Assembly: GCA_944383955.1 (NCBI GenBank)
Contig: CALWRP010000200.1
Span: 1 to 39,452 of the forward strand
DNA length: 39,452 bases
DNA from: an uncultured Clostridia bacterium
Lineage (GTDB): Bacteria > Bacillota > Clostridia > Oscillospirales > Acutalibacteraceae
Direction of reading: 5' to 3'
Shown: one piece after another, positions 448-38,324 of the stretch
Numbering within the stretch: the stretch's first letter is position 1
Layout of the letters: each line of letters opens with the position of its first letter
Translations under genes and position numbers: made by a program
Notes under the pieces: model-generated
What the model saw: only the letters and a program-made list of their open reading frames with translations
The model's database searches: none
Told to the model about the DNA's origin: nothing

Positions 448-2247
448 ATGGAAAATCGTCAGCTGCTGCCGTTTGAACGCAACCGCTATTATGTCGGCAA
501 GCTCTTGACCTCGGCCGACTTCCAGGCTGAGCAGGCCTATTTCAACAACAAGCGGCGTTTCCTCAACCAACTGATGTTCGGCGCGGGCATTGTCTGCGGT
601 CTGAGCGTGTACAGCCTCGATGACCTCTCCATTATGGTGGAATCCGGCGCGGCGATCGACGGGCTCGGCCGCGAGGTGGTTGTGGAGAGCTCTGTGGTGC
701 GCAAGCTGTCTGCCATCGAGGGCTTTGATTCGCTCACAAGCGAACGGGCCGCGCTTTGCCTTCGCTATCGCGAGGAGGCCGTTCACCCGGTGTGCACGGT
801 CAACCGCATGGAGCGCGACGAGGAATATGAGCTCAACCGCCTGCGCGAGGGCTGGGAGCTTTTCCTCATGGACGCGCAGGACGTTGCGCAGGAGGGTGCG
901 CAGGAGTCTGAGTTTCTTCTGCATTCCACGCTTTATGAGGATAACGATTTCTCCGTCACCGTGACGATTCCGGCCATTGTGAGCGCGGGCAGCGCCGTCA
1001 AGGCGCTTGTGCGTATCCGCAAGCTTTCCGAAGCGAAGAAAAGGTTCACGCTCGACTGCGTGCTGCAGGCCCCGGCCTTCCTGGCGCCGGGAGGCGGCCA
1101 CGAGGTGCGGATCCGCGCCGTGGATCTCGATCTGGAGAAGGACGAGGTTTTCGATTGCCCAAACTGGCTCACGGCCCAGCAGCCGCTCGACGAGGCCATT
1201 TTGCTGGCCAAAACGGACGCGGTGCGCATTTCCATAGACGATGAGGAAAAGGCCGCCCGCGATTCGTTCCTTCTGAAGGTGGCTGTCTCCGCCGAGCCGG
1301 TTGAGGAGATCCTTTCCCGCGAGGTGGGCCGCGTGAGCCTCGAGATGCGCAGCTTTTCCGCTCCGCCGGAATATATCCGCCTCGCGGACATCAGCCTGCA
1401 GCTGACCAAGAGCGCCTATATCATCGACCGTGTCGAGGAATGCGGCGTGAAGAAGTATCTCTACACCACCTCAGGCGAGGAGACGCGCCGCGGCTACGAG
1501 AGCTGGTTTGCCTCTCCGGAGGCGACTGTGTCCGCGGCTCCTGCGGCGCAGCCCGGCGGCGCTGGAATGTCCGGCGGCCTCTCCTTCCAGGAGCCGCTCT
1601 ACGCGACCGGCACGTGCGAGATCCCGCTCGGCGACAGGGCGCGCCGCGGCGAGGTTTTCTATTCAAGCGAGATCATGCACGGCCTCGGCGCCGGCAATGT
1701 CTATGTGCAGGTCGGCTTCGAGTATCTGGCCGAGGATTCCCGCCTTTCCTCCACAGCGAAGAATACCATTTACGGAGACGTCTCCCTCTTTGATCAGGAG
1801 AACCTGCCCGTTGCCCCCGCGCAGACGGCTGTGAAGGTGATGAACGACCGCGGCAGCTTCGTCGTGGCGGCCAAGCTGCAGAAGGAAACCTCCTATGTGA
1901 TGCTTCTGCTGCGCTGGGTGGCCGTCAAGATGCCCTCCGAGGACGACCGCACGCTCCTGCAGCGCATTTCAGACAAGAGCATCAGCGCGGTGCAGCCCAC
2001 GGTGCTGCTCGGCACGCGCGAGAGCTGCTACTTCAGCGTGCGCTTCCGCAACATGGAGCCCTGCGGCCTGACATACGAGCTCACCGACAGGGATTCGGGC
2101 GAAATCACCCCCGACGGCGTCTACACCGCGCCGGCCAGGGAGGGCGTCTACGAGATCCGCATCAGCTGCGCCGACGCGCCGCTGATCTGCACCTATGCGT
2201 ACGCTATCGTGAAGAAAAAGGAAAACAGGGAAGGCGAGAAGTCCTGA
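448..2247 (+). CDS. CIS-associated protein with GKLLT...GIVCGL N-terminal motif
   Basis: First gene of the CIS operon, 599 residues from the ATG at 448, which follows GAGGTG at 435-440 with good spacing. The open frame reaches back to 295, but similarity to the family begins at this ATG. Residues about 13-52 carry the pattern YYVGKLLTSADF, EQAYF, KRRFLN and GIVCGLSV. I recall this pattern from uncharacterised proteins in many CIS loci. The last 80 residues resemble a bacterial Ig-like fold (ITPDGVYTAP). There is no signal peptide or membrane span. It is probably a soluble accessory or baseplate-associated component; the exact role is unknown. A 34-bp gap separates it from the next gene. Confidence 0.7.
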   Translation: MENRQLLPFERNRYYVGKLLTSADFQAEQAYFNNKRRFLNQLMFGAGIVCGLSVYSLDDLSIMVESGAAIDGLGREVVVESSVVRKLSAIEGFDSLTSERAALCLRYREEAVHPVCTVNRMERDEEYELNRLREGWELFLMDAQDVAQEGAQESEFLLHSTLYEDNDFSVTVTIPAIVSAGSAVKALVRIRKLSEAKKRFTLDCVLQAPAFLAPGGGHEVRIRAVDLDLEKDEVFDCPNWLTAQQPLDEAILLAKTDAVRISIDDEEKAARDSFLLKVAVSAEPVEEILSREVGRVSLEMRSFSAPPEYIRLADISLQLTKSAYIIDRVEECGVKKYLYTTSGEETRRGYESWFASPEATVSAAPAAQPGGAGMSGGLSFQEPLYATGTCEIPLGDRARRGEVFYSSEIMHGLGAGNVYVQVGFEYLAEDSRLSSTAKNTIYGDVSLFDQENLPVAPAQTAVKVMNDRGSFVVAAKLQKETSYVMLLLRWVAVKMPSEDDRTLLQRISDKSISAVQPTVLLGTRESCYFSVRFRNMEPCGLTYELTDRDSGEITPDGVYTAPAREGVYEIRISCADAPLICTYAYAIVKKKENREGEKS

Positions 2248-2281
2248 TGAGGGCCCTTCCCGCGAGAGGTGGTGAGGCAGG

Positions 2282-3136
2282 TTGGTCTATCATGCGGAGG
2301 AAATGATTTTATCTCCTGTGCGGGAGATTTTTCACGGACCCGTGAACGATGTGATTGTCTGCCAGGATTTGCGTTCGTCCACGCGCGCCTGTTACATATT
2401 GATTGCCGTCAGGGACAGAGAGACGGCCAAGCGCCTTCTGCTGGTCCTGCAGAATTCCCAGCGGGAGACGGGAGACCGGCAGCCGTGCATCCGGATGTTC
2501 ACGGAAAACGAGCTGCTGTGCCTGCTGTTTGAGTACCGGCCGGAACGCAGGCTCGATCGCTTTGCCGCCGGCCAGCTTCTCACCCCGCAATCGCGCGAGC
2601 GCGTCTGCGTCAATCTGGTGATGGAATGCCTGTCCAGCCCGCTGCCGTTCCCGCTTCTCTACCTGGCGCTCGAGCGGGAGAACGTGCATCTGCTTCAGGA
2701 CGACGGCGTATATTTCACCTGCTGCTTCGACCTGAGCCGTCTCGACGAGTCTGTGGGGGAGGCGCAGTGTACGGACCGCTGCGTGCAGCTTCTGCTTTCC
2801 CTGCTGAGAAAGCAGTCGCGCAGGCAGCTCAAGAGCTTCGAGCTGCTGCGGAAAAAGTCGGAGCGCGGCGCCTATACCAGCCTTCCGGAGCTCTACCGCG
2901 ACATCCGCATCAGCGCCCTTCCGGAGCGCAAGGCCTCCGTCAGGGAAAGGGCGGAGGGCTTCTGGGAGCGCAACAAGGATCTGTTTTTCCGTATTCTGCT
3001 CCGGCTGAGCGTCGCGGTGGGGCTCATTGCCCTGATTATTCTTATCTCGCAGCTGATTTTCGGGGGCTTCCCGCTGCTGCGGCTGTTCCAAAATACGTTT
3101 GAGGTGATCGGGACGGAAAATCTGACCGGTACCTGA
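2282..3136 (+). CDS. Single-span membrane protein, possible pseudokinase-like cytoplasmic domain
   Basis: 284 residues starting at TTG 2282, which has GGTGAGG/GAGAGGTGG just upstream. The ATG at 2303 has a ribosome site only 2 nt away and is less likely. About 230 soluble residues precede one strong membrane helix (VAVGLIALIILISQLIFGG), leaving a short outer tail, so the bulk should face the cytoplasm. The run LLFEYRPERRLDRF, then LLYLALERENVHLLQDDG, recalls a kinase hinge and catalytic-loop region without catalytic residues. That would resemble the pseudokinase half of EssB/YukC of type VII secretion. This resemblance is by eye and weak. It is the first of five envelope genes and may anchor or sense the CIS at the membrane. 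Confidence 0.6.
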   Translation: MVYHAEEMILSPVREIFHGPVNDVIVCQDLRSSTRACYILIAVRDRETAKRLLLVLQNSQRETGDRQPCIRMFTENELLCLLFEYRPERRLDRFAAGQLLTPQSRERVCVNLVMECLSSPLPFPLLYLALERENVHLLQDDGVYFTCCFDLSRLDESVGEAQCTDRCVQLLLSLLRKQSRRQLKSFELLRKKSERGAYTSLPELYRDIRISALPERKASVRERAEGFWERNKDLFFRILLRLSVAVGLIALIILISQLIFGGFPLLRLFQNTFEVIGTENLTGT

Positions 3137-3151
3137 GGGGAGGATCTGTGC

Positions 3152-5737
3152 ATGAAAAAAGCCGTTGGGGCCGTCCTGCTGCTGGGCGTTCTCCTTGCGG
3201 TGCTTCTGGCCGCTCTTCCGGCGGATCTTCCGGAGCTTTCCGACGCCGAGCCGACCATTGCCGTCACGGCGGATCAGACGGTTTATCTGACGGAGACGCG
3301 CGGCGGCTCTGCCTGGATTTACAGCGTCAACGATGAGGGGGCCGTGCGCGACACCCATCTGTACGAGGATGCGTCAGGGATACCGCTGCTCACCGCCCTG
3401 GAGAACGATGTTTATTTCGTTCTCACCACGGCCGAAGGGGAGGCCTGGAGCCTCCTGCGGCTGCGGGAGGGGGAGGAGACGGTCCTCTTTGAGAGCACGC
3501 GGGAGCTCGCCGCTCCACCCGAGGCCGTCTGTGCCTCAGCCTCGGGGATCGATTTGACCTTTCGCAGCGGAAACACGCTCTCCGTCTACCGCATGGATTT
3601 GGACGGCGGCGAACCTGCCCAGCTGCTTGACACGGAGCTTCCCGACGGCATGACGGCCGTCTCCGCCGTGTTTGCCAACGACAAGCTCTTCTGCCTGCTC
3701 AGCGACGGCCGCATCCTCACGCTGCGCGCCGGCGGGCAGGAGGATCCCACCGTGCAGGAGACGGGCGGGTTTACGCTGCTCTCCGCCTCACAGGGATCCG
3801 TGTGGGCCTACCGGGAAGAGACGGGCTCTGCCTGCTTCGGCGCCGCGTCCGTTCAGAGCGGCACAGGCGTTGTGCTCGGCGGGCAGGCGGTGCTCTGCGG
3901 CGCGACAGGCGGAGCGGACGGGGATACCGCCGCGCTCTCCATCGAAAACGGCAAAGCGGTGCTGGTGCGCGCCGGCGCGGCGAGTACGCTTCGTCAGGTT
4001 CCGGAATTTTCCCTGCGCGTGCGGCTGATGTTTAAAATGAACCTGCTCCTTCTGGGAATGACGGTCTATGCCGTGTGCGCTCTGCTTTTTCTTCTGACAT
4101 TTTTCCTTTGCCGGAAAACGCACCGGCTCGCGGTTCGCGTGACGGCTGGCTGTACCTGCCTGTTCCTGTTCACGGCGGGAGCGGTGGGAACCCTTTCCTG
4201 GGCGGCGGCGCAGGAGCGCGAGGCTTCGCTGCTCACTGCACAGGCGGCTTCGGCCGGTCAGCTGCGCGCGGCCTCGCTGGAGGCGCTCGATCTGACAGCG
4301 GTTCTGGCCGGAAGCGCAGGCGTGGACGACGCGCTGCGGCAGCTTGCCGCTGTGGAACTGGAAAGCGGAGAGGGAACGCTCACCTTCCAAAGCGCCATCC
4401 TCGCTCCAGACGGACAAAGCGTCAGCTTTTCCGGTGACGCGGCAAAGGGCTCGCCCGTCGGCGCGGTGTATGGGCAGGAGACCGCTCTGCTTGTCCAAAA
4501 CGCTGCGGACGGCATGGACGGCACGGCGCTGTGCTCGAACAGAGGCCGCCCCTCCGGCGTCGATGTGCGCACGCTGACGCGGTATGGCGATCCGGTCGGT
4601 CTGCTTGTCACCACGGTCTCCGCTTCAGATGAAACGCTGACGGAGCCCTGGGCTCTTTTCCTGCCGCCGTTTGTGGCCGCAGTGGCCGCGTCCGTCCTCA
4701 CGGCGTTGTTCTCATTCCTCATGCTCCGCCCGCTGCGCCGCCTCACCGGCCGTATGCGCGCGATCTCCGAGGGGGACTTCAATCTGCCCTCGATGCGCAC
4801 CGCCCCCGACGAAGTCGGCGATATGTGGCAGTCTCTTCGCGAGATGGCGGTGGCTCTGCACATTAAGGATTACGAGACGGACGCCACAGTCCGCTCGTTC
4901 TACCGGTTTGTGCCGCGCGGCATCGACAGGCTGCTCGGGCGCGCCTCCATCATGGAGACGAGCCTCGGCGACATGGCGAACGTCAGCGGGACGGTGGGGA
5001 TTCTCTCCATCCAGAACCGTGAGGACATCCGCGTCCGCCTTGACGACAACGGCTTCATGGATTTCCTCAACGACAGCTACGCGCTCATCGATCGCCAGAT
5101 GGACGAGCACGAGGGGCTTCTTCTCTCGAACGGCTTTGACCCGGACGGTCTCGAGCTTCTCTTCGGCGGCTCGGCCGATCAGGGCGTTTCGTTCAGCGTG
5201 GGCCTGCTCGGGGAGACGGGCCCCATGGAGCCCGACCGCACGCCGGACTTCTTCCTGCTGCTGCACAGCGCCACCTTCCTCTACGGCCTGGTCGGCACGG
5301 AGCAGCGCACCTTCTCGCTGCTGTCCTCCTCCGAGATCGCCTTCCTGCACACGCTGCCGCGCTTTTTCCGCGGCACGGGCGTGCGTCTGGCCGCGACGGA
5401 CGCCTGCCTCAAGGCGATGGCAAGACCGTGCGCCTCGCGCTACATCGGCTTTGTCTCCTCCGAGGACGGCAAATACGTGTACAAGCTCCATCAGATTCTG
5501 GAGGGCTGCTCCGATCTGGAGCGGTCGCTCTGCCTCTCCTACGACGACAAGTTCCAGAAGGGCATCCGCCTCTTCTGCGAGAATGACTTCTATCTCGCCC
5601 GCAATCTCTTCTCCACGATCCTCAAGCTCAATCCGGGCGACGGCATCGCGCGGTGGTACCTCTTCGCCTGCGAGCACTATTTCAACCAGAGCGATCCGGG
5701 CAGCGAGGGCTATAATCTTTTCGGGATCCAGGAGTGA
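3152..5737 (+). CDS. Membrane HAMP protein with degenerate class III cyclase domain and TPR end
   Basis: 861 residues; ATG 3152 lies 8 nt after AGGGGAGGA. Order: N-terminal membrane helix (5-21); exported beta-rich region with propeller-like repeats (about 30-285); two membrane helices (294-317, 325-350); second outer region (350-498); membrane helix (499-525); HAMP linker (525-570) with ISEGDFNLPS. Then comes a segment from FYRFVPRGIDRLLG through LGDM that matches the entry to adenylate/guanylate cyclase homology domains, and a TPR-like end (NLFSTILKLNPGDG). Where active cyclases have the first metal aspartate (FSDI), this protein has LSIQ, so it is probably not catalytic. The second region, PDGLELLFGGSAD, still resembles GDAIMALF. 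Likely a signal-transducing receptor of the CIS envelope module. Confidence 0.75.
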   Translation: MKKAVGAVLLLGVLLAVLLAALPADLPELSDAEPTIAVTADQTVYLTETRGGSAWIYSVNDEGAVRDTHLYEDASGIPLLTALENDVYFVLTTAEGEAWSLLRLREGEETVLFESTRELAAPPEAVCASASGIDLTFRSGNTLSVYRMDLDGGEPAQLLDTELPDGMTAVSAVFANDKLFCLLSDGRILTLRAGGQEDPTVQETGGFTLLSASQGSVWAYREETGSACFGAASVQSGTGVVLGGQAVLCGATGGADGDTAALSIENGKAVLVRAGAASTLRQVPEFSLRVRLMFKMNLLLLGMTVYAVCALLFLLTFFLCRKTHRLAVRVTAGCTCLFLFTAGAVGTLSWAAAQEREASLLTAQAASAGQLRAASLEALDLTAVLAGSAGVDDALRQLAAVELESGEGTLTFQSAILAPDGQSVSFSGDAAKGSPVGAVYGQETALLVQNAADGMDGTALCSNRGRPSGVDVRTLTRYGDPVGLLVTTVSASDETLTEPWALFLPPFVAAVAASVLTALFSFLMLRPLRRLTGRMRAISEGDFNLPSMRTAPDEVGDMWQSLREMAVALHIKDYETDATVRSFYRFVPRGIDRLLGRASIMETSLGDMANVSGTVGILSIQNREDIRVRLDDNGFMDFLNDSYALIDRQMDEHEGLLLSNGFDPDGLELLFGGSADQGVSFSVGLLGETGPMEPDRTPDFFLLLHSATFLYGLVGTEQRTFSLLSSSEIAFLHTLPRFFRGTGVRLAATDACLKAMARPCASRYIGFVSSEDGKYVYKLHQILEGCSDLERSLCLSYDDKFQKGIRLFCENDFYLARNLFSTILKLNPGDGIARWYLFACEHYFNQSDPGSEGYNLFGIQE

Positions 5738-5764
5738 CGGCCCCGAGGGAAAGGACAGTGAAGC

Positions 5765-7018
5765 ATGAATAAAATATGGACAACACTGCTTTCCACGGTT
5801 CAGTCGAAGATCACGCCCCTGTGGACGAGAATTCGGCTTTGGACGACCCGGGCTTACTGGGAAAACAGAGGCATCACCACTCTGCGGCAGTTCTTCAGCA
5901 AGCTGTTCAATATCCGGCCCCGGGACAAGACGGACTACTATCCGTTTCTCTCCTGGCTTGTCAGCAAGCGGCTGGCCTTTGCCCTGGTGGTGCTGATAGG
6001 CCTTGTGAGCCTGTTCTACATCTTTGTGTTCTCCCCGGTGAGCTCCACCATCTTCAGCGAGAGCGCCACGGTGCCGACCTTCCGCTACAACTCGATCCCC
6101 CTCAAGTTCTACAACGGTCAGGCGCAGATCCTCGCTGCCGACGGCCATCTGGCCTATGTCGGCAGCGTGCAGGACGCCGCGGCGGCCGGGAATGGCAAGC
6201 TCTACCGCGCAGACGGCAGTCTGCTCTACAGCGGCGAGTTTTCCGACAGCAAGTACAACGGCCAGGGCAGCCTCTTCTATCAGGACGGCGTGCTCCGGTA
6301 TGTGGGCGGTTTTGTTGATAATCTCTTCGAGGGCGAGGGCCAGCTGTACCGGCAGAGCGGCGTGCTCGAGTATGAGGGCGGCTTCCTCAAGGGCCAGAAA
6401 TCCGGCGCCGGGATCCTCTACAACAGCGGCGGCAACACCATCTTCACCGGCAACTTCCTCGCAGACCGCCTGATCTACAGCGAGTTCCTCGGCAAGACCA
6501 CCGCTCAGGTTGCCACCATGTACACCGGCAGCACAAGCGTTTACAGCAGCTCGACGGAGCACTGCGTCTCCATGGACGAGATCAACGCCGTCTACACGGC
6601 GGACGACGGCTCGGATACCCTCTCTGAGGAATGGGTGCTGACCGAGGTCCTCGTCGAGGACAGCGTGTTCCCCACGACGCAGGGGGAGATATCCTCCATC
6701 AACGAGCTGACAGGCTATTTCGGCGACCCGGTCTACCTCGGCTACACCTGGCCGACGCTCACGGAAGCGGTGGCGGTGCGCGCGATGAGCGAGGCCGGCA
6801 AGGGCCGCTTCGCCGACATCGACATGGAGATGACCTCGAGCCTCCGCGACGTGCACAGCGTGAGCTCCTATGACAAGAATTACGAGTTCTACATTTATGT
6901 ATACGAGATGGACGGCTTGACGTACACCTTCTACTGCGACAGCAGCACGTCGCCGTTCTCCATGTATTCGATCACCATGAGCACGGCGCAGGAGAGCGCC
7001 GGGGAAGGAGGAGAGTGA
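5765..7018 (+). CDS. Membrane-anchored MORN-repeat protein
   Basis: 417 residues, ATG 5765 after GAAAGGA, 27 bp downstream of the previous stop. A cytoplasmic N-terminal stretch of about 70 residues precedes one membrane helix (LAFALVVLIGLVSLFYIFVF, about 73-92). Residues about 120-240 hold four to five MORN-type repeats (GNGKLYRADGSLLYSGEF, GQGSLFYQDGVLRYVGGF, GEGQLYRQSGVLEYEGGF and so on). A C-terminal domain of about 160 residues has no recognised family. MORN repeats form beta-hairpin rods that bind proteins or membranes, so this would place a rod outside the membrane next to the exported proteins encoded downstream. The next gene starts 1 nt after its stop. Confidence 0.75.
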   Translation: MNKIWTTLLSTVQSKITPLWTRIRLWTTRAYWENRGITTLRQFFSKLFNIRPRDKTDYYPFLSWLVSKRLAFALVVLIGLVSLFYIFVFSPVSSTIFSESATVPTFRYNSIPLKFYNGQAQILAADGHLAYVGSVQDAAAAGNGKLYRADGSLLYSGEFSDSKYNGQGSLFYQDGVLRYVGGFVDNLFEGEGQLYRQSGVLEYEGGFLKGQKSGAGILYNSGGNTIFTGNFLADRLIYSEFLGKTTAQVATMYTGSTSVYSSSTEHCVSMDEINAVYTADDGSDTLSEEWVLTEVLVEDSVFPTTQGEISSINELTGYFGDPVYLGYTWPTLTEAVAVRAMSEAGKGRFADIDMEMTSSLRDVHSVSSYDKNYEFYIYVYEMDGLTYTFYCDSSTSPFSMYSITMSTAQESAGEGGE

Positions 7019-7019
7019 G

Positions 7020-28000: not shown

Positions 28001-28075
28001 AGCGATATGCGCCCCACGCCCTTCATGATCGGCGTGAGCGGCCGCCACACGATCACCATCAGAACCATCGATTGA
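25022..28075 (+). CDS. Large baseplate J-type wedge protein (Afp11/Pvc11-like)
   Basis: 1017 residues; ATG 25022 overlaps the gp25 gene and follows GGAGGA. An N-terminal helical part (residues 1-90) includes FANQMRENIRRMNLVMEKYH. The next long region has the CIS wedge pattern IAIEYFNGVGWRKLHC and WWLRIVDERGQF. The C-terminal third is the baseplate J core: HYTLDRMNSVLHFGDGVSVM, VQAVCCDGSAGNLAAGAVTQ and VESARARGANLICSKNRLVS. It corresponds to the large wedge subunit that, with the second J-type protein, builds the ring around the hub. Length about 1000 is normal for Afp11-like proteins. Confidence 0.92.
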   Translation: MKPSRESRLDPRGVKELRGEIRRLAASYTPEWAFSEKKPDVGSVVGLIFANQMRENIRRMNLVMEKYHTEFVNMLNLSLRSAYPASGVVVVELIAGSVPGVYVPAGTRLIGQDSREDARQILFETVSDVYVTNSRLTDVFSASGTFGRLIPALGCRPRQELIEEERESRSELEEFLGEEPDRSVMQEIPLFDFSGEGVERWALLLTHDTLFRAQENVELCVRVNTPEGESLASFFADAERFRWTYQTGGVFYPFAGVEERDGVLVLRRGALPETAAAEGEPGACTVICVEALRPITEAVTVGELALSSSCSGLLPDIIYDGSNELASDDFLPFGDKASLFDECYIGGDSVFSQRDSSVELTFRLSARERLVTLSQAQELEELRIIKRKPRSIQYQAAKTSPQQIAIEYFNGVGWRKLHCEEDWSTLFDGSHSGRYTIRFRCPADWKPVVVGGYEGRSLRLRITRADDCYLQPCVHTMPRLEQLRLSYSYFDDWKQPQRLRALCGTQFCDLTASLRARRPFEAFSVLPFAGNALYLGFDRPMDGAPVSLLFDVKENANFVDAPLHFEYSTREGFEPLRVIDHTRNLSESGTILFIPPTRFARREIEGKSRWWLRIVDERGQFNDPDRYHPVIRRILPNAVEIRNQTTMPEEVFYITASIPNMEFSLSARNILYADVFVNERGRLSGPAMRTMLREHPDDVRAEFDHLGEITEFYVRWTEVDNFDHSAPGDRHYTLDRMNSVLHFGDGVSVMIPPARQGPAFTVQAVCCDGSAGNLAAGAVTQPFSQLLYVGSLTNPLPTSSGSDLESVESARARGANLICSKNRLVSELDFLREVEAFASSIRKVRCVVGRDFDGAEMPDAVSIAVMTADYADSDHSFAALRERLRAHLMSKSEATLRELMIGEPSYVEIDVGVWADTRNTDHAFELQEELRRQIADYLNPLTGGSGKGWPIGVLPSEAQLSRMLHSTDLGLLVRRFCVTARYADRSGVHERSLSDMRPTPFMIGVSGRHTITIRTID

Positions 28076-28126: not shown

Positions 28127-28157
28127 ATAAAATTTGCGGGAACCGGAGGAATCGGCA

Positions 28158-30275: not shown

Positions 30276-30300
30276 TTACACGGACGGGGAGAGAAGACAC

Positions 30301-31365: not shown

Positions 31366-31389
31366 GTAACTCGAAGGAGGAACGGCTTT

Positions 31390-31689
31390 ATGACGATTTC
31401 ATCCACTATCAGGGACAATCAGGCGGTGCTTCAGATTGATGGACGTGTGGACACCAACACAAGCCCCCAGCTCCAGAGCGCGATTTTGAGCGCGTTCCAG
31501 AAATCCACGTACATTGTGCTCGATTTCGCCAAGGTTCCATACATCAGCAGCGCCGGTCTGCGCGCCCTGCTGCTTGGCCAGAAAACAGCAAATTCGAAGC
31601 ATGCCACAATGGAGCTTATCCATGTATGCCCCGCGGTTATGCAGGTGCTTCAGGCTGTCGGTTTTGCGGATATCCTGACGATTCACTGA
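31390..31689 (+). CDS. STAS-domain anti-sigma factor antagonist (RsbV/SpoIIAA type)
   Basis: 99 residues; ATG 31390 after AAGGAGG, 24 bp after the tail-I gene and before a strong terminator, so it is the last gene of the CIS operon. It is a single STAS domain: VLQIDGRVDTNTSPQLQSAI, IVLDFAKVPYISSAGLRALL and MQVLQAVGFADIL. Ser53/Ser54 of YISSAG match the serine phosphorylated by RsbW/SpoIIAB kinases. Its likely partners are the kinase (37860-38324) and phosphatase (32003-33439) on the opposite strand. Dephosphorylated STAS would sequester the kinase and free its other target, which is not encoded as a sigma factor here. Confidence 0.92.
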   Translation: MTISSTIRDNQAVLQIDGRVDTNTSPQLQSAILSAFQKSTYIVLDFAKVPYISSAGLRALLLGQKTANSKHATMELIHVCPAVMQVLQAVGFADILTIH

Positions 31690-31738
31690 TTTTTTGCGGG
31701 CGTCTTGCCGTTTCTCCGCAAGGAATCGATATATAGGA

Positions 31739-31790
31739 CCGCTTGCAAATCAAGGCATCGTTTGCAAGCGGCTCTTTTGCGCCTTTTTTT
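31739..31790 (+). terminator. Intrinsic terminator of the CIS operon
   Basis: CCGCTTGCAAA (31739-31749), an 11-nt loop, and TTTGCAAGCGG (31761-31771) form a perfect 11-bp stem, followed by CTCTTTTGCGCCTTTTTTT. It lies about 50 bp after the STAS stop and marks the end of the plus-strand unit. Confidence 0.85.
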
Positions 31791-31870
31791 CCAAACTTAC
31801 GGAGGAATTTTCAGAACGCGCCCCCGGCAGCCTGCGGGAGGGGACGCAACGGTTCCGTTTGTCCCCTGAA

Positions 31871-31915
31871 AAGAACCCGGCCGTCTCCCCTGCATTTGGA
31901 GGCGGCCGGGTTCTT
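31871..31915. terminator. Symmetric strong hairpin, possible bidirectional terminator
   Basis: AAGAACCCGGCCG (31871-31883) pairs perfectly with CGGCCGGGTTCTT (31903-31915), and CTCC/GGAG extends the stem inward. Short T runs occur on both strands. It is placed between the two dedicated terminators and would block any read-through from either operon. Confidence 0.7.
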
Positions 31916-31926
31916 TCGCGCGGGCG

Positions 31927-31975
31927 AAAAAGAAACGGCGCTCCCGTCCGGCCGCAGAAGGCCAGGGGGAGCGCC
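31927..31975 (-). terminator. Intrinsic terminator of the kinase-NRPS-phosphatase operon
   Basis: On the minus strand GGCGCTCCC, a 21-nt GC-rich loop and GGGAGCGCC (plus coordinates 31967-31975 and 31937-31945) are followed by GTTTCTTTTT. It begins about 27 bp after the phosphatase stop. Confidence 0.82.
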
Positions 31976-32002
31976 GGTATGCTTGAAAAAGGATATTCCA
32001 GC

Positions 32003-33439
32003 TCAGTGCACCTCAAGGCCGAGCATGGTGATGTCGTCGAACTGCTCTGCGCCTGCGGTGAAAGCGTCCATCGACGTCTTGACTGCCGCGAGCATCTGCT
32101 CGGGAGAGAGGGAGGGGCTCTTGTTCAGGGCCTCCACCAGGCGATCGTCTCCATAGAGCTCTGTGGAGGAATTGATGGCCTCGGTCACGCCGTCTGTGTA
32201 GAGGAAGATGCGGTCGCCCGCGTGCAGCTGGATAGATTCCTCATGGTAGACCATGCCCTCCAAACCGGCCAGAACAAACCCGGGCTTCGTCTTGAGGAAG
32301 GTGAAGCCTTCGTCTCCCTGGCGAAGGAGGGGCGGGTTATGGCCTGCGTTGACAAAGGTCAGCTCGCGGGTGTCAAGGTCGAGCACGCCCATGAAGGAGG
32401 TGACAAACATGCTTTCGCCGTTGTTTTCGCACAGCTGATCGTTGACGCGGGTGAAAACCTCGCCGAGAGGAATGCCGGGCTGCGTCTGGTTCTTGATCAG
32501 CGTCTTGGCGATCACCATGAAGAGAGCGGCGGGCACGCCCTTGCCGGAAACGTCGGAGATGACGATCGCCAGATGGCGGTCATCCACCAGGAAGAAGTCG
32601 TAGAAATCGCCGCCGACCTCCTTGGCTGGCTCCATGGTGGCGTAGATATCGAACTCATTGCGCTCCGGGAAGGCGGGGAAGATGCAGGGCAGCATGTCGC
32701 GCTGAATGTTGCGGGCCACATTGAGCTCCGCCTGCGTCTTCATCGCGCGGGACGACCAGAGGGCGTTGGAGAAGATGAGCCAGTACATCACGCCGAAGAT
32801 GAGGCAGACGATCAGATAGAAGAGCACGAAGAGGATTCCCGTCTGCGGCAGCAGGCCGACGGCCTGCACGATCTGCACGATGCAGAAGAAGCCGAAGGAG
32901 GCGATGAAGGGGATTGGCACATAGCGGCCCATCTTGTGCGAGAGGATGTTGAACACCTCGATCATGGTGCGCCGCACGAAGACCACCATGATGACGCCGA
33001 TGATCGCCGCGATCAGCGCCTTCATCAGCGTGAACGGGATGAGGAAGAGGTAGCCCTCCTCCCCATAGGGGTCGATGGTATTGATCATGGCGGTGGTGGT
33101 GATGCCGGTGAGGAAGGAGCCGACGTTGGAGATGAAGATCACCGTCACAACGGTGAAGAGCTTGGTGCTGACAGGCTCCTTATAGAGGAAGAAGCACGGC
33201 AGCGGGAGGAAAATCATCCAGCCGAAGAAGATAAAGTAGTCCCACCACTGCGGGCCCGTCACCGTGCAGCCGATCCAGGCGAAGAGAAAGTAGCACACGA
33301 GGGCCGCGCCCCAGCTCAGCCAGGAGAACACCGGCTTGCGCTTGCTTTCAAGCGTGAGATGCGTCAGAATCACAGCGAGGCACGCGGAGACGAGACCGGC
33401 CGCCGCGTACCAGAATGCGTTTTGCGTCAGGACATTCAT
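32003..33439 (-). CDS. Membrane SpoIIE/RsbU-type PP2C phosphatase
   Basis: 478 residues; minus-strand ATG at 33439 preceded by GAGGAGG. The first 225 residues contain about seven membrane helices (for example FWYAAAGLVSACLAVIL, IFFGWMIFLPLPCFFL), which form an uncharacterised sensor region. A short coiled linker (TQAELNVARNIQRDMLP) leads to the SpoIIE phosphatase domain (about 245-478) with AKEVGGDFYDFF, ISDVSGKGVPAALFM, LYTDGVTEA and EQFDDITML, so the metal-binding aspartates are present. Such enzymes dephosphorylate STAS antagonists, here most likely the product at 31390. It is the last gene of the NRPS operon, 33 bp after the synthetase gene, so a membrane signal would set the state of the switch. 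Confidence 0.93.
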   Translation of the reverse strand: MNVLTQNAFWYAAAGLVSACLAVILTHLTLESKRKPVFSWLSWGAALVCYFLFAWIGCTVTGPQWWDYFIFFGWMIFLPLPCFFLYKEPVSTKLFTVVTVIFISNVGSFLTGITTTAMINTIDPYGEEGYLFLIPFTLMKALIAAIIGVIMVVFVRRTMIEVFNILSHKMGRYVPIPFIASFGFFCIVQIVQAVGLLPQTGILFVLFYLIVCLIFGVMYWLIFSNALWSSRAMKTQAELNVARNIQRDMLPCIFPAFPERNEFDIYATMEPAKEVGGDFYDFFLVDDRHLAIVISDVSGKGVPAALFMVIAKTLIKNQTQPGIPLGEVFTRVNDQLCENNGESMFVTSFMGVLDLDTRELTFVNAGHNPPLLRQGDEGFTFLKTKPGFVLAGLEGMVYHEESIQLHAGDRIFLYTDGVTEAINSSTELYGDDRLVEALNKSPSLSPEQMLAAVKTSMDAFTAGAEQFDDITMLGLEVH

Positions 33440-33472
33440 TGCTATCCAACCTCCTCAGGATTGATGTGATAT

Positions 33473-36400
33473 TTACAGCCCAAACGCCCCGAGCATGTCG
33501 AGGTTGGTCAGGCAGGTGACGAGATACTCGCGGGTGATTTCCGGCCAGTAGAAGCCGCTGCGGCCAAGGATGCCGGCCGTGAGCTTGCAGTTGTAGCCAA
33601 TCTCGAAATGGCCCTCGGCGCTCCCCTCAAGCTCAGAGATGATGTCGACGAGAAGCTCGCGCTTCTCCGGCTGGCCGAGGATCTCCGCGATCCGCTCCTC
33701 ATACTCCGCGTCGTCGAGGCAGGCGATCTCATAGCCGATATCGCCGAGACTCTCGAAGATCATGCGGTAGGAGGTGCGCTTGTCGTTGAAGATGTGGAAA
33801 ACAGGCTGCTGCGACGACACTCCCGCGAATTTGACGATGAGCTGCGCCGTGCAGTCGACGGGCGAATAGTCGACGTCGCTCTCCCACACCGAGCGCGGCG
33901 CAAAGCCCAGGCGGATGTAGGCCTTCAGGCGCGCGGTGAAGGCGTTTGTGGCGTGGTTGATCTGGAACTCGCCGTCGGAAAAACGCCCCTGCAGATTGCC
34001 CACGCGCAGAATATGCGCGCGCAGGCCCTTCTGAATGGCGGAGAGCACCTCGCGCTCGCCGAGGAATTTGCTGGCCGCGTAATCGTTGCTCAGATCCTGG
34101 CGGAAATAGAAGTCCTCCTCCGTCAGATACGGGCGGCGCTCCGTGCGGTGCTCAAGGCCGAACTGGCCGATCGTGGGGGTGGAGATATGCAGCAGGGCCG
34201 CTCCCTGGCGGAGGCAAAGCTCCGCAAGCCGCCGCACGCCGCCGACGTTGATCTGGTACATGGCCTCGCCGTAAGTGAAGTGGGAGACGTCCGCCGCACA
34301 GTTGATGGCGAGATCGAATTCCGCCTGCGAGCCGCCGAGGATATCGTCCTTGGTCAGATCGCCCTCGATGGGCGTCAGGCGGCCGGACTCGAAGGCCTCG
34401 TCGTAGCTGTCGCCGAAATAGTAGAAGAGCATCGTTTTCAAGCGCTGCTCGGCGGTGAGCTTGCCCTTGGACCGCGCCATGCAGAGGACGGTGCTGTCCG
34501 TCGTCTCGATCAGCTCGCGCAGCACGTGCAGGCCCAGGTAGCCTGTCGAGCCCGCCAGCAGAATGCGCCGCGGCGTCTCGCCGAAGACGGCGTCCTGCTT
34601 CCAGGTGAGCAGGGGAGCGAGCGAGTCGTAGTCGAAGTCCGCGATCTCAGGCCGCTCGGAAACCTCCGGCTCCTGATCCATGCCGGCGCACATCATGCGC
34701 ACGGTGGGGTTCGCGAACACGCTCGAGTATTTGAGCGGGATGCCCGCCGCCTCCGCCTCGATCGCGAGGTGGGCCGCAAGCAGCGAGTCTCCGCCGATCT
34801 CGAAGAAATTGTCGTCCGTGCCGATGCGATCCTTTTCCAGCAGGCGGGCGATGATAGCGCAGAGCGTCTCCTCCTGCTTCGTCTCCGGCGCGCGGTAGAC
34901 CACCTGCACGGAGACCTTGAGGGCGGCGAGCGCACGCTTGTCCGTCTTGCCGCTCGAGGTCACGGGGATCGACTCAATCTGCAGGAAGGCGGAGGGGACC
35001 ATGTAGTAGGGCAGCTTCTGCGAGAGGGCGTCCTTGAGCTCCTGCGCCGGGATTTGCCGCGTGGCGGTGAAGTAGCCGCAGAGGAATTGCAGCTTGCCGT
35101 CGCTGCGCAGCAGCACGCAGCAGCTCGTCACGCCGTCCACGGTGGAGAGGACGGACTCGATTTCCCCAAGCTCGATGCGGAAGCCGCGCAGCTTGACCTG
35201 ATCGTCCATGCGTCCGAGGTAGAGCAGCTCTCCGCTGCGGCTCCAGCGCACGAGATCGCCGGTGCGGTACATCCGCCGGCCCTGGAGAGAGATGAAGCGC
35301 TCGGCGGTTTCCGTTTCCAGATTCTGATAGCCCCGCGCCAGCCCGACGCCGCCCACGCACAGCTCGCCGGGGCAGCCCGCGGGCAGCAGCTGGCCGCGCC
35401 GCCCAAGCACGCGCACGGAGAGGCCCTTCACGGGCAGGCCGAGGCTGGCGTTGGGGCCGAACACCTCCTGCACGGAGGTGACGATGGAGACCTCGGTCGG
35501 GCCGTAGGCGTTGAAGACGCGCATGGAGGGGGAGAGGCCGCGCAGCTTTTCCCACAGCAGGGGCTGGAAGGCCTCGCCGCCGCTCATGAGGACGTCCAGG
35601 CCCTTTGCGGCTTCCCGGAAGTCCTCATAGCCGAGATAGGAGATGAGGCGGGACGGCGTGGCGAAGAGGACGTTGACCTGCTCGGCGCTCATCCGGCGGC
35701 CGAGCAGAGCGGGATTGTCGAGCTCGTCCTGGGTGGCGAAGCAGATCGTCACGCCGTTGAGGAGCGGCGTGAAAATCTCCAGCACCGAGATATCGAACGA
35801 GAGCGAGCCGATGGCCAGCACGGTCCGCCCGCGCGTGGCGACGGCGCCGATCAGCGGGCAGCTGTCCGGCCTTGCCAGGTTGACGAGGCCGCGGTGCTCG
35901 ATCAGCACGCCCTTGGGCCGCCCCGTGGTGCCGGAGGTGTAGATGCAGTAGCAGAGATTTTCGGGGGAAACAGCCGCCTGCGGCTTTTCCTGCGGGCCCT
36001 TGAGCGCCTCGCTGAACAGCAGGGTGGGCACACCCTGGGGCAGCAGCGGCAAAAATTCCTCCTGGGTGATGACGCAGGAGACGGCGGCGTCCTCCAGCAT
36101 GAAGGCGATGCGGTCCTGCGGATAGGTCGGTTCCAGGAAGAGGAAGCCCTGCCCGGCCTTGAGAATGCCGAGCGTGGAGACGAGCACGCCCGCGCCGCGC
36201 GGCAGCATCACAGCCGTCAGGCGCTCGCCCGAGCCATAGCGGCGAAGCAGCGTGTTGGCAACCGCGTTGGCCTGCCGGGAAAGCTCAGAGAAGGAGAGCG
36301 CGCCGTCCGCGCCGCGCACGGCGCAGTGATCCGGCGTTTTCGCCGCCTGCCTCTCAAAGAGGGAGACGACCGTGTCCGGAGAGGGGGAGGGGGCGGACCC

Positions 36401-37735
36401 GCACTGGCCAAGCCGGTCGAGGAGCTCGCGCTCCTCCTGCGCGACAATCACGGCGTCGCCGATCGGCTGCTCCGGATTGTCCATCGCCGCGGAGAGCACC
36501 TGCATCATTCCCTCGTGCAGGCGGCGGATCTCATCCTCGTTGTAGAGCACCTTGCGGTGATCGTAAAAGACGGTGTAGCTGCCGTCGAACAGATCGAGCA
36601 CGTGCTGGATGAGGCTTCCCATCATGGTGGCCGGGTCGCCGAACCACACGTCGATCGGATATTCGTATTCACCTGTCTCGATGCGCGTCTTCTGATAGGA
36701 GACGGAGGCGTCGATCAGATCGCGGCCGATGTCCTGCCCGGAGGCGATGTCCTCGGCGATCTGCATGAGCGGGTATTTCTTGTGCGCGGCCGCCTCTGAG
36801 GCTCCCGCGGCGATATCCCGGCACAGAGAGAGGAACGACTGCTCCGGCTGCGGCTGGCAGCGCAGCGGCAGCTCCATGACAAACATGCCCACGCAGTCCC
36901 GCTCCGCCTCGGTGTCGCGGTTCAGGCGCGCCATGCCCATCACCACGTCGCGGCACTGGGCGCGCTGGAAGCAGTAGACGCACAGGGCCGCCGTGAAGAG
37001 AATGTGGGGCGGCATGCCGTGCGCGCGGGCAAAGGCCTTGATGCGCTGCGAAATGCCGGAGGAGAGGTGGAAAACGCGGCGCGAGGCCGTGCGGTCCGCC
37101 GTCAGTTCGGGGCTCAGATACGATTCGCCCAGCGAGAGGTCGCGCAGCTTCCCGCTCCAGTACGCGCGATCCTCCTCCCATTGCGGCCCGTTCCGGTAGG
37201 CCTCCTCGGCGCCGAGAAACGCATCTGGGGAAGGGTGACGGTGAGACGGCGTTTTTCCGTCGCGAAGCTGAAGGTAGTTCGTGAATATTTCAGACCACAG
37301 AAGGCCCGTCGCCCAGCCGTCGCACCAGATGTGGTGGAATTTGCAGAAGAGGCCGTCCACGCGGTCCGAGAGGCGCACCAGCCGGAACTCGACCAGGGGA
37401 GCGTCCTGGAAGACGAAGGGGCGGTGCCCCCAGCGGCGGAAGGCGTCCTCCTGCTCCTGCTGCGCCTGCTCCCGCAGATCCTCCGTGCGCAGGGCATAGG
37501 GCGTATAAGGGGCGATATACTGCATCAGCGTGCCGTCCTGCATGGTAACCTGTGTGCGGGCGCCGGGGTTTTCCTGCAAAAAGAGGTTGACGGCGCGCTC
37601 CATGCAGTCGTGGTCGATCGGCTCGCGGGATTTGAGCACAAAATAAAGAACATTCACGTCCGTGCCGGACGCTACGATCTCCTGCGAGTAAATATTTTGC
37701 TGAGAGAGGGAGAGGGGAAAAAGCTTCTGGTCCAT
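33473..37735 (-). CDS. Single-module NRPS: condensation-adenylation-carrier-reductase
   Basis: 1420 residues from the minus-strand ATG at 37735, which has AAAGGA 9 nt upstream; the open frame reaches 37822, but homology starts at MDQKLFPLSLSQQNIY. Domains: condensation (1-430) with active HHIWCDG (His134, His135, Asp139); adenylation (455-960) with SGTTGRPKG near 600, NAYGPTEVS and SGKTDKRAL; carrier with GGDSLL (phosphopantetheine Ser984); reductase (1055-1420) with GSTGYLG and YAASK (Tyr1219, Lys1223). Reductase ends release the thioester as aldehyde or alcohol. A hand-read pocket code is about DILFMGAIVK, a hydrophobic pocket; the substrate is not assigned. The leading C domain implies acylation of one amino acid by a free or separately loaded donor, giving an N-acyl amino aldehyde/alcohol. 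A phosphopantetheinyl transferase is not in the window. Confidence 0.95.
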   Translation of the reverse strand: MDQKLFPLSLSQQNIYSQEIVASGTDVNVLYFVLKSREPIDHDCMERAVNLFLQENPGARTQVTMQDGTLMQYIAPYTPYALRTEDLREQAQQEQEDAFRRWGHRPFVFQDAPLVEFRLVRLSDRVDGLFCKFHHIWCDGWATGLLWSEIFTNYLQLRDGKTPSHRHPSPDAFLGAEEAYRNGPQWEEDRAYWSGKLRDLSLGESYLSPELTADRTASRRVFHLSSGISQRIKAFARAHGMPPHILFTAALCVYCFQRAQCRDVVMGMARLNRDTEAERDCVGMFVMELPLRCQPQPEQSFLSLCRDIAAGASEAAAHKKYPLMQIAEDIASGQDIGRDLIDASVSYQKTRIETGEYEYPIDVWFGDPATMMGSLIQHVLDLFDGSYTVFYDHRKVLYNEDEIRRLHEGMMQVLSAAMDNPEQPIGDAVIVAQEERELLDRLGQCGSAPSPSPDTVVSLFERQAAKTPDHCAVRGADGALSFSELSRQANAVANTLLRRYGSGERLTAVMLPRGAGVLVSTLGILKAGQGFLFLEPTYPQDRIAFMLEDAAVSCVITQEEFLPLLPQGVPTLLFSEALKGPQEKPQAAVSPENLCYCIYTSGTTGRPKGVLIEHRGLVNLARPDSCPLIGAVATRGRTVLAIGSLSFDISVLEIFTPLLNGVTICFATQDELDNPALLGRRMSAEQVNVLFATPSRLISYLGYEDFREAAKGLDVLMSGGEAFQPLLWEKLRGLSPSMRVFNAYGPTEVSIVTSVQEVFGPNASLGLPVKGLSVRVLGRRGQLLPAGCPGELCVGGVGLARGYQNLETETAERFISLQGRRMYRTGDLVRWSRSGELLYLGRMDDQVKLRGFRIELGEIESVLSTVDGVTSCCVLLRSDGKLQFLCGYFTATRQIPAQELKDALSQKLPYYMVPSAFLQIESIPVTSSGKTDKRALAALKVSVQVVYRAPETKQEETLCAIIARLLEKDRIGTDDNFFEIGGDSLLAAHLAIEAEAAGIPLKYSSVFANPTVRMMCAGMDQEPEVSERPEIADFDYDSLAPLLTWKQDAVFGETPRRILLAGSTGYLGLHVLRELIETTDSTVLCMARSKGKLTAEQRLKTMLFYYFGDSYDEAFESGRLTPIEGDLTKDDILGGSQAEFDLAINCAADVSHFTYGEAMYQINVGGVRRLAELCLRQGAALLHISTPTIGQFGLEHRTERRPYLTEEDFYFRQDLSNDYAASKFLGEREVLSAIQKGLRAHILRVGNLQGRFSDGEFQINHATNAFTARLKAYIRLGFAPRSVWESDVDYSPVDCTAQLIVKFAGVSSQQPVFHIFNDKRTSYRMIFESLGDIGYEIACLDDAEYEERIAEILGQPEKRELLVDIISELEGSAEGHFEIGYNCKLTAGILGRSGFYWPEITREYLVTCLTNLDMLGAFGL

Positions 37736-37859
37736 GGCATTGATTCCTTTCCGTTTGAGACGGACGGGTGCGGCCCGCCCGAGACGGCCGGGAGCAATCC
37801 GATCCTCGCCGCCGCATTCCAAAAAGGAAGATCATGGTTTCGCGCATGATCTTCCTTCT

Positions 37860-38324
37860 TTATGACTCGCTGTTTTCGCCGGCAAAAAGGCGTTTTTTCA
37901 TGGTGAAGCAATTCTGTCCGTCTCGGTGTTCATAAGAGACCTCGTCCATGCTCTTGCGCACCATGTAGATGCCCAGGCCGCCGATCTGGCGCTCTTCAGC
38001 GCTCAGGGTGATGTCCGGATCCTTGCGGGAGAGCGGATCGTAAGGCGTGCCGCGATCCATAAAATCAATTTGAATGCGCAGCGGATCCTCCTCCAGCGTC
38101 CAGCGCAGCGTAACGGGGCCGCGCCCGGGCTGGTAGGCGTAAAGGGCAATGTTGACATAAATTTCCTCAACGGCAATGTCGAGGACGATTTTCTCCTCCT
38201 CAGAGACGCCGAGCGCATCCAGCGGATAGTTGACAAAGCCGAGAACAGCGTCAAGCTCCTCTGTTTCCGCGGAGAATGTGACGGTTTTCGATTTCGGAAG
38301 GTCAGGTGGCAAAGACGTCTTCAC
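37860..38324 (-). CDS. RsbW/SpoIIAB-type anti-sigma serine kinase
   Basis: 154 residues from GTG at 38324 on the minus strand, with AGGGATG upstream; the nearby ATG frame stops at once. The HATPase motifs are present: N box DIAVEEIYVNIALYAY, G1 DRGTPYDPL, G2 GGLGIYMVRKSMD. Such kinases bind a target (usually a sigma factor) and phosphorylate the STAS antagonist. It is first in the operon with the NRPS and the phosphatase. A 124-bp gap separates its stop from the NRPS ATG. No sigma factor is encoded in the window, so the target is elsewhere or is not a sigma factor. Confidence 0.9.
   Translation of the reverse strand: MKTSLPPDLPKSKTVTFSAETEELDAVLGFVNYPLDALGVSEEEKIVLDIAVEEIYVNIALYAYQPGRGPVTLRWTLEEDPLRIQIDFMDRGTPYDPLSRKDPDITLSAEERQIGGLGIYMVRKSMDEVSYEHRDGQNCFTMKKRLFAGENSES

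Follow-up and report, generated by a model that had tools for sequence, protein, structure and literature searches.

The window analysed here, a stretch of 39,452 nucleotides, encodes a headless contractile injection system (CIS) with five membrane or exported proteins ahead of it and a STAS protein last in its operon, on which converges, by Pfam profiles, an operon coding for a HATPase, a non-ribosomal peptide synthetase (NRPS) of C-A-T-R organisation and SpoIIE. At its core stands a clostridial CIS that has a STAS lineage of its own. We lean slightly towards a membrane-linked CIS whose state would be switched through phosphorylation of the STAS that it encodes, and of which the NRPS would be a co-regulated output; phosphorylation, target, product and firing are all predictions. 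The window is an entire MAG contig, so that the left flank of the locus is cut; the genus includes Candidatus Caccousia avicola. Order and orientation of the NRPS/CIS locus are identical in three congeners (G002, G003 and G004), and since gene order is conserved in relatives, the arrangement is not due to chance.

Particle genes, all on the + strand, were assigned with Pfam, at scores above each family's own cut-off unless stated. The cap g07 (Pvc16_N, 11757-12350) is followed by g08 (12354-13157), a CIS-linked protein recognised by its conservation in relatives, and by g09 (13158-13541), a PAAR-like spike tip (DUF4280) that an earlier reader had not named. Then come the contractile sheath g10 (13641-15347), whose nearest solved sheaths are 9EZM (best, E 4e-147) and next 8BKY of S. 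coelicolor; the inner tube g11 (gp19, 15389-15883); g12 (15957-16319), a tail assembly chaperone-like protein of 120 aa (phrog_508, E 1e-6); and g13 (16556-18055), a second gp19-like protein with a long repeat-rich tail, below cut-off (17.8 of 28.2 bits). The 907 aa product of g14 (18124-20847) is a tape-measure candidate by its position. Two CIS_tube proteins, g15 (20905-21756) and g16 (21773-22561), precede the baseplate hub g17 (22590-23780), assigned through phrog_52 (E 7e-15), the spike g18 (Phage_base_V, 23771-24589, its start being placed at about 23771 within ORF 23609-24589) and gp25 (g19, 24610-25032). Both wedges are Baseplate_J proteins, g20 (25022-28075; 20.6 bits, slightly below the 21.1 cut-off) and g21 (28134-30275; 31.9 bits). 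Tail protein I, g22 (Tail_P2_I, 30301-31365), gave a single weak match in the PDB search.

Sheath, tube, spike, gp25, wedges and cap thus lie within one locus from which head genes are absent, as expected of a CIS. Pfam detected no phage head, terminase, portal or lysis family among 27 ORFs and the STAS, so a prophage was rejected; the Pfam scan and the phrog_52 hub agree with the contractile particle devoid of head and lysis genes proposed in a preliminary description of this DNA. No tail-fibre family (Afp13 type) was found among the scanned ORFs of the window, and the gap between tail I and STAS is 24 bases. The window, cut at its left edge, has no AAA+ ATPase; one lies upstream of g01 in G002, G003 and G004, where the left flank also carries a histidine kinase and a response regulator, and behind the STAS in a further relative, G001.

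Six genes stand ahead of the cap, all on the + strand. A simple hydropathy scan flags five of them, g02 to g06, in line with the five membrane or exported proteins described previously; since single stretches of sheath and hub are flagged as well, the scan is a rough guide. The unflagged one, g01 (448-2247), is a CIS gene whose 599 aa product carries a FERNRYYVGKLL motif and is without match in Pfam, PHROG and PDB searches; in the window it precedes the envelope genes, and in type-B CIS loci it follows tail I. The next, g02 (2282-3136), codes for a one-TM membrane protein with homologues in 17 fetched stretches, 2 of them partial. A HAMP-domain membrane protein (g03, 3152-5737; 32 bits), present in CIS loci of type A and type B alike, is a candidate envelope sensor. 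It is followed by a MORN-repeat one-TM protein recognised by Pfam and the hydropathy scan (g04, 5765-7018), an exported TolC/OEP-like coiled-coil protein (g05, 7020-9059; OEP 28.8 bits) and an exported or anchored protein (g06, 9081-11738) with a C-terminal Cu_amine_oxidN1-like stretch, sub-threshold in Pfam (21.7 of 24.2 bits). Among 61 named loci with more than 7 kb ahead of the sheath, TolC-like genes occur in 52 and CuAO-like genes, as g06, in 55.

The CIS operon does end in a STAS gene, g23 (31390-31689, +), identified by Pfam, alignment and tree, with S54 in YISSAGL as candidate phospho-serine. Of 30 named loci, 25 have a STAS at a distance of 31-202 bases behind tail I; the other 5 have none within 1.5 kb of it. 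It is present behind tail I in all 18 loci read further downstream, which were stretches picked for being long, with two genes between in G452. In a tree of 55 rows, tail-linked STAS form a separate clade (41 versus 14 rows, split supported 100/98); four of the 41 had been labelled as cassette by the script, and are actually behind tail I or, for G001, at a contig start. Distances between STAS proteins follow those between tail I proteins (Mantel r 0.76, 0/2000 permutations, 31 loci), and the candidate phospho-serine column is a serine in 55/55 rows.

The convergent operon, on the - strand, is preceded by a sigma-70-like promoter found by motif scan (TTTACA-18-TATAAT, 11/12, 38406-38435; one found versus a mean of 0.3 in shuffles), and a terminator scan of the gap between it and the CIS operon gives two candidates, versus a mean of 1.1 in shuffles. 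Its first gene, g26 (37860-38324; HATPase_c_2 78.6 bits), codes for an RsbW-like HATPase, a candidate serine kinase. The single-module NRPS g25 (33473-37822) has Condensation, AMP-binding, PP-binding and NAD_binding_4 domains by Pfam; its true start is likely near 37735, and matches in G002-G005 start at residue 24-29. With its HHxxxDG, TSGTTGRPKG, GGDS and YxxxK motifs it is a reductase-terminated C-A-T-R NRPS, scoring below the cut-off of reductase model TIGR01746 (138 of 213 bits). Last comes g24 (32003-33439), a SpoIIE-type PP2C phosphatase (182 bits) with six TM-like segments in the hydropathy scan; one of the 27 scanned ORFs, 31694-33469 (+), is its shadow. HATPase_c_2, SpoIIE and the C-A-T-R domains bear out the STAS partners and reductase-ended NRPS of the preliminary description. 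A metallophosphoesterase (38474-39262) was not counted as part of the locus; beyond the HATPase, G002 and G003 carry instead an ORF labelled by eye as methyltransferase-like. An Rfam search gave 0 matches.

RsbU/V/W is a partner-switching module, and the window likewise combines a HATPase_c_2, a STAS with the conserved serine and a SpoIIE PP2C with metal-site motifs, the presence of these motifs having been tested in the sequence. A strict Sigma-B/SpoIIA switch was rejected, since Pfam finds no sigma factor family among the window ORFs and g26 falls far below equivalog cut-offs (RsbW models 36-39.5 bits versus 145-155; SpoIIAB 19.5 of 135). In 13 of 18 loci, tail I is followed by SpoIIE and HATPase at less than 26 kb, and SpoIIE matches are enriched in CIS genomes (13/22 versus 74/372, p 1.2e-4). 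A cultured carrier, the record titled Oscillibacter valericigenes strain An890 (G426), combines this CIS with STAS, histidine kinase, response regulator, AAA+, SpoIIE and HATPase genes. Such pairs are not CIS-specific, because a HATPase within 1.5 kb of SpoIIE is also common at CIS-less loci (12/18, versus 6/8 CIS genomes). At E<=1e-104, none of 390 further genomes in the class draw yields a SpoIIE orthologue of nearly full length, and in 50 named CIS genomes all SpoIIE matches start at residue 75 (of 478) or later, whereas the form that goes with the NRPS starts at about 10; these absences are soft, as the genome search missed a SpoIIE that tblastn finds in G433. In the window lineage the HATPase comes first and the cassette is devoid of STAS, so switch wiring differs between lineages. 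The G001 HATPase is 60% identical to that of G250 and likewise to that of G361.

The preliminary description regarded CIS, envelope genes, switch and NRPS as one four-part combination, to be read as mere adjacency should relatives keep the CIS with its flanks and routinely lack the kinase-NRPS-phosphatase block, or the reverse. CIS without the NRPS and a cassette without CIS were both found: no NRPS was present in 7-30 kb read behind tail I at 18 named CIS loci, and G037 has a STAS-NRPS-SpoIIE-HATPase cassette and no sheath match in the genome search, a soft absence. CIS, envelope genes and partner switch do recur together; the NRPS is not fixed, and is therefore an optional payload of the switch cassette rather than core. 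A fixed four-part system was rejected, most such CIS being without NRPS. The adjacency of CIS and NRPS is nevertheless not trivial. CIS loci harbour two NRPS lineages, 34-36% identical to each other; three arrangements and two CIS architectures are represented, always within about 20 kb. Each of the 5 NRPS carriers in family f13 (87 genomes) is also one of the 16 genomes with a CIS, and the two are separated by 2.8-10.8 kb. Two congeners have broken contigs, and one of them, G001, shows a different arrangement. In G005, the contig with the cassette has no CIS genes, and in G021, whose NRPS match looked similar at first, no switch gene lies on the fetched 20 kb.

CIS and switch cassettes might instead be functionally unrelated, both accumulating in one accessory region and spreading jointly, a reading that we consider rather doubtful. 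Besides the G037 cassette and the frequent CIS-less SpoIIE-HATPase pairs, this would account for type-A sheaths being 75-78% identical between families, suggestive of locus transfer, and for 3 of the 5 NRPS-positive f13 genomes belonging to one genus; linked loci may have spread together, so that the counts are not independent. It fits less well with three arrangements, two CIS architectures and NRPS of two diverged lineages, all within about 20 kb, or with the tail STAS being a lineage of its own that tracks tail I. Moreover, the PPTase-NRPS-SpoIIE block of G001, missing from the otherwise similar G250 locus, lies between genes that are adjacent in the latter.

It is unlikely that the switch decides a lytic or death programme, through a released eCIS-type particle or a cell-suicide CIS like the cytoplasmic one of Streptomyces. 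This would suit the second-best solved sheath (8BKY), the death-linked Streptomyces CIS of the CisA paper (PMC12237407, available part), and an eCIS_core (DUF4157) cargo gene elsewhere in the genome (G000:C20; 89.5-92.5 bits in two scans, cut-off 22), which has an AAA+ neighbour. Yet no lysis family is present among the window ORFs, and five envelope genes before the cap, with TolC-like and CuAO-like genes at most loci, fit anchoring better.

The place directly upstream of SpoIIE varies in content: MATE, GNAT, GH3 or D-Ala-D-Ala-ligase-like genes across loci, the NRPS in the window. In type-B locus G305, a gene labelled MATE-like by eye stands between STAS and SpoIIE, where G361 has STAS-NRPS-SpoIIE. 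That this place repeatedly holds small-molecule enzymes or exporters suggests a functional class. Least probable is a switch serving the CIS alone with the NRPS as an unrelated gene of the operon: switch genes do persist near CIS loci devoid of NRPS, whose presence is sporadic, but the NRPS lies immediately ahead of SpoIIE, on the same strand, in 12/12 cassettes, window included, the whole cassette is kept even in G037, and the place is repeatedly filled by genes of this class.

We thus return to a CIS of gut Clostridia that is probably tied to the envelope of the cell and has a partner switch built in. Its STAS, encoded in the tail operon, would be set as phosphorylated or free by the RsbW-like kinase and the membrane SpoIIE-type phosphatase. 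Free STAS may act on a partner other than a locus-encoded sigma factor: a CIS or AAA+ component, the kinase itself, or an unlinked regulator. The switch genes appear to carry an exchangeable output adjoining SpoIIE, in Caccousia and one other family the single-module C-A-T-R NRPS, which would release a small aldehyde or alcohol; being such an output, the NRPS would be co-regulated with the CIS and not part of the particle. A single phosphorylation switch might plausibly control firing as well as production of the metabolite. More tentatively, and with well under even chances, dephosphorylated tail STAS might license assembly or firing and simultaneously turn on an exchangeable amino-acid-conjugating payload (NRPS, GH3, ATP-grasp or aminoacyltransferase, with exporters), so that attack by contact would be coupled to a chemical weapon or signal.

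What decides CIS firing is an open question in the field; with a candidate phospho-switch protein encoded by a widespread clostridial CIS itself, it becomes testable with three small proteins. The payload place points to a set of small-molecule enzymes whose activity may be timed with injection, and the repeated placement of peptide synthetases among switch genes suggests that one signal may govern both nano-syringe and small molecule. Such CIS occur in Clostridia of bird, ruminant and mouse guts (hosts from sample names in record titles), in contrast with the depletion of eCIS from avian and mammalian microbiomes reported in PMC8213781 (available part) and with another survey, in which human-gut CIS are nearly confined to Bacteroidota.

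Clostridial CIS as such are not new, since PMC8213781 lists eCIS toxins from Firmicutes, one from Ruminiclostridium cellulolyticum. In its available part, that survey names GerE and BTAD regulators for eCIS, SpoIIE occurs 0 times and the sole match to STAS is the word stasis. No publication joining CIS with partner switching or such an NRPS was found, subscription papers and preprints being outside the scope of the search; words for CIS and NRPS co-occur in two papers, whose titles concern Xenorhabdus and soil. With eCIS (Afp, PVC; PMC8213781, available part) the locus shares sheath, tube, baseplate and cap, a nearby AAA+ in relatives and eCIS_core cargo in the genome; it differs in having no tail-fibre family among the scanned ORFs. 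The best sheath match comes from the haloarchaeal T6SS-mode CIS of Halogeometricum borinquense (9EZM, PMC11566945), whose membrane anchor is proposed to be the product of a conserved gene with six TM helices by prediction; that system is archaeal, and no STAS, SpoIIE or NRPS was noticed in the available part of the paper. The Streptomyces CIS with CisA, also from a Gram-positive host, requires a membrane protein for firing; it is death-linked and cytoplasmic, with neither partner switch nor NRPS mentioned in the available part of PMC12237407. Minimal reductase-ended NRPS (ATRed; PMC7586950, available part) release their product through the reductase as an aldehyde, as predicted here, whereas the NRPS of the window is C-A-T-R and stands among switch genes. 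RbaY/V/W of Rhodobacter (PMC3999984, available part) form the same trio of PP2C, HATPase and STAS, and RbaV is reported to govern a phage-like particle, the gene transfer agent, with no sigma factor found. Unlike in RsbU/V/W and RbaY/V/W, here the STAS is encoded within the operon of the particle, and a biosynthetic payload belongs to the cassette.

Searches with Pfam (27 ORFs and the STAS protein) and PHROGs (ten ORFs) confirmed the union, in one locus, of a contractile injection system (CIS), an envelope module, a partner switch and an NRPS that had been proposed in the preliminary description. Ahead of the CIS stand g01 and five proteins that are membrane-bound or exported, and a STAS gene ends it; no head or lysis family was found in the window by the same searches. 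The window spans one entire contig (G000:C200), and the source MAG has 2.6 Mb in 229 contigs and is 92.7% complete. Convergent with the CIS-STAS genes runs an operon HATPase-NRPS-SpoIIE, from 38324 down to 32003, with a sigma-70-like promoter match ahead of the HATPase. Its NRPS has Condensation, AMP-binding, PP-binding and thioester reductase domains (Pfam), and the motifs HHxxxDG, GGDS and YxxxK are all present. The second gp19-like protein (g13) contains long tandem repeats at 17229-17427 and 17689-18045, with units of 24, 21 and 63 bases, and relatives match it only over its first 160-310 residues. The protein encoded at 15957-16319, 120 residues long and bearing a CPKC motif, has a weak likeness to a tail assembly chaperone; its identity reaches 97.5% in the genus and is 46-59% in CIS loci of other architecture. 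The contig edge (38474-39262) bears a Calcineurin-like phosphoesterase, which G002 and G003 do not show next to their HATPase.

Among 59 genomes of the relatives draw, own included, the sheath was found in seven: all six of the window's genus, and G010. By tblastn, the order and orientation of g01 to g26 are as in the window in three relatives (G002, G003 and G004), which carry a kinase, a regulator and an AAA+ ATPase beyond g01. The locus of G005 is split over two contigs, the cassette (switch genes with NRPS) being on one without CIS gene. In G001, the tail-bearing contig stops just after tail protein I (tail I), and a second one starts inside a STAS gene, followed by a histidine kinase (reverse), an AAA+ ATPase, a small protein, a PPTase, the NRPS, SpoIIE and HATPase; we infer that the two contigs adjoin, and a search for an overlap between them found none. 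G010 has a related CIS on a 28.8 kb contig, where tblastn gave no STAS, SpoIIE, HATPase or g02-g06 match, and its genome gave no NRPS match. Away from the CIS locus of the window's genome, at G000:C20 304-1641 (L356), an eCIS_core (DUF4157) protein adjoins a second eCIS-like AAA+ ATPase; this pair is also present in G001, G002, G003 and G250, and eCIS_core had no match in G004 or G005.

At the level of the order (394 genomes), the sheath was detected in 22 genomes (E≤1e-20) and SpoIIE in 87 (E≤1e-70), with both in 13; SpoIIE matches starting by residue 11 were restricted to own, G361, G158 and G037. Sheath carriers show two architectures. Type A resembles the window, and in five such loci (G326, G349, G250, G226, G114) tail I is followed by STAS. 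In type B the sheath comes first, with g01, HAMP, MORN, cap, PAAR and AAA+ genes behind tail I and often a second SpoIIE. Seven of the 22 (G367, G153, G140, G149, G093, G227, G409) are of neither type or too short to assign. Type-A sheaths from other families (G326, G349, G226, G850, G860) are 75-78% identical to that of the window, and other sheaths in the same families about 50%; judging from these sequences, the type-A locus may have been transferred between families. The best 80 of 579 confirmed sheath loci from named genomes bore titles of Clostridia, plus one Bacillota and one unnamed bacterium, a class membership that we take from the names. The envelope part of the locus is conserved: in the 61 named loci with more than 7 kb before the sheath, HAMP (45), MORN (49), TolC-like (52) and CuAO-like (55) genes were found there.

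Fifty named genomes, picked from these best 80 mostly for long contigs, were searched further, and had a SpoIIE match (E≤1e-60) in 45 cases and tail I in 49. Among the 49 tail I matches, the 30 best were examined for a STAS gene: it lies 31-202 bases behind tail I in 25 loci, and none was seen within 1.5 kb in G430, G432, G434, G436 and G470. Reading 7-30 kb further downstream in 18 genomes revealed STAS in all, SpoIIE and HATPase at less than 26 kb in 13, and NRPS in none. The SpoIIE-HATPase pair is not CIS-specific: among 26 control loci with SpoIIE from the order, a HATPase gene was found no more than 1.5 kb away in 12 of 18 from CIS-less genomes, versus 6 of 8 from genomes with a CIS.

A tree of 55 STAS proteins on 107 columns, few for that many rows (identical rows and ORFs above 180 residues, such as that of G361, were dropped), has a split, supported at 100/98, between 14 rows and 41. 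Every row of the smaller group is a cassette STAS. The larger holds 37 rows labelled tail-linked and four labelled cassette (G001, G467, G462, G465) because tail I is outside the piece or unmatched there; on a separate reading, STAS is directly behind tail I in the last three, and that of G001 is at the contig start. Four label changes are needed, and none of 500 shuffles required as few. Tail I distances correlate with STAS distances, a correlation that species relatedness alone can give. The expected phospho-serine column is S in 55/55 rows; we assume from SpoIIAA and RsbV that it is the phosphorylation site. In this tree the tail-linked STAS stands as a separate, dedicated lineage.

Twelve NRPS cassettes were collected: six in the window's genus, five in the family f13 and one in G037. 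In nine the sheath is on the same contig (own, G002, G003, G004, G361, G158, G854, G858, G868), and the cassette of G001 shares its contig with the tail-type STAS and AAA+ gene. The proposed co-occurrence of switch and NRPS genes near the sheath held in part. SpoIIE and tail I share a contig and are no more than 50 kb apart in 13 of the 50 named genomes, many contigs being short (rough binomial 0.0014, assuming a guessed chance of 10% each). In f13 (87 genomes), all five NRPS carriers (E≤1e-150) are among the 16 with a sheath, at 2.8 to 10.8 kb from it; the Fisher p of 1.2e-4 is only a guide, because only two of the five are among the 52 genomes more than 90% complete and three belong to one genus. 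With own set aside, the order draw contains three cassettes, two of them in genomes with a CIS (p 0.008). Against the association, G037 has the cassette and no sheath match in its genome. This CIS-less cassette follows a gene for a sodium:dicarboxylate symporter (L057 7634-9208) that is extended at its N-terminus by about 126 residues.

The NRPS fall into two lineages, one of window, G002 and G004 (67-80% identical) and one of G001, G361 and G158 (57-63%), with 34-36% between them; that of G037 is 31-36% from all. G003 and G005 (NRPS), G158 (HATPase), and G005 and G001 (STAS) were left out of this comparison, which used a shortened G158 SpoIIE. Aligned at the DNA level with the NRPS-less G250, G001 matches over STAS-kinase, AAA+ and small protein, and weakly at HATPase. 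Relative to G250, about 6.5 kb (PPTase-NRPS-SpoIIE) stand between small protein and HATPase in G001; the response regulator of G250 was not seen in G001. Insertion of the NRPS block is not decided by the G001 HATPase, equally near (60% identity) to those of G250 and G361. The PPTase of G158 matches Sfp (1QR0, E 4.5e-11), that of G001 only PPTase models of NCBIfam, at scores well below their cut-offs, and neither has a Pfam family. By simple pattern search, exact HHxxxDG is absent from the NRPS of G361 and G158, and GGDS from those of G001, G361, G158 and G037; predicted activity in these four is less sure for that reason.

In 12/12 cassettes the gene immediately upstream of SpoIIE is the NRPS, in the same orientation; HATPase opens the cassette in the window and G002-G005, and closes it in G001, G037 and all five f13 genomes. 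In NRPS-less CIS loci, ORFs at this place were labelled by eye, and of ten proteins submitted to Pfam nine had a family at E≤0.001: MatE (G431), GNAT (G443, and G451 under its cut-off), D-Ala-D-Ala ligase (G452), GH3 (G445), an LPG_synthase_C aminoacyltransferase (G443, and G471 with an added formyl-transferase domain), MFS (G102, whose 6 kb contig bears no CIS genes) and a calpain-like protease (G443). Further MATE labels (G305, G114, G173, G427) are by eye or mutual tblastn. In type-B G305, STAS and SpoIIE flank a MATE-like gene in the position of the G361 NRPS, and both are oriented divergently from the sheath. In G445 and G471, the tail STAS is separated from this place by other genes, among them one for an AAA+ protein. 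The calpain-like cysteine protease domain protein of G443 (L334 854-3112), between tail STAS and switch cassette, is a possible CIS cargo. We interpret the payload enzymes as sharing a theme, the joining of amino-acid-like units.

The interpretation initially put forward for the four-part combination is partly supported: the coupling of CIS and STAS switch stands as conserved, and the NRPS, found in 0/18 downstream regions, is recurrent but optional. An envelope-linked CIS set by phospho-switching of its own STAS, with the NRPS as co-regulated output, is in our view only just probable, slightly less so because the G001 HATPase does not decide the insertion story. Coupling of a CIS to a STAS switch was not found in print in the literature searched. 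The sheath profile best matches the haloarchaeal CIS 9EZM, then 8BKY of S. coelicolor, and the parts seen of papers on the former (PMC11566945) and on the Streptomyces CIS (PMC12237407) discuss membrane links. For a sigma-less partner switch over a phage-like particle, the Rhodobacter capsulatus gene transfer agent offers a precedent, being described, in the portion of the source consulted, as under a partner switch with no known sigma factor (PMC3999984).
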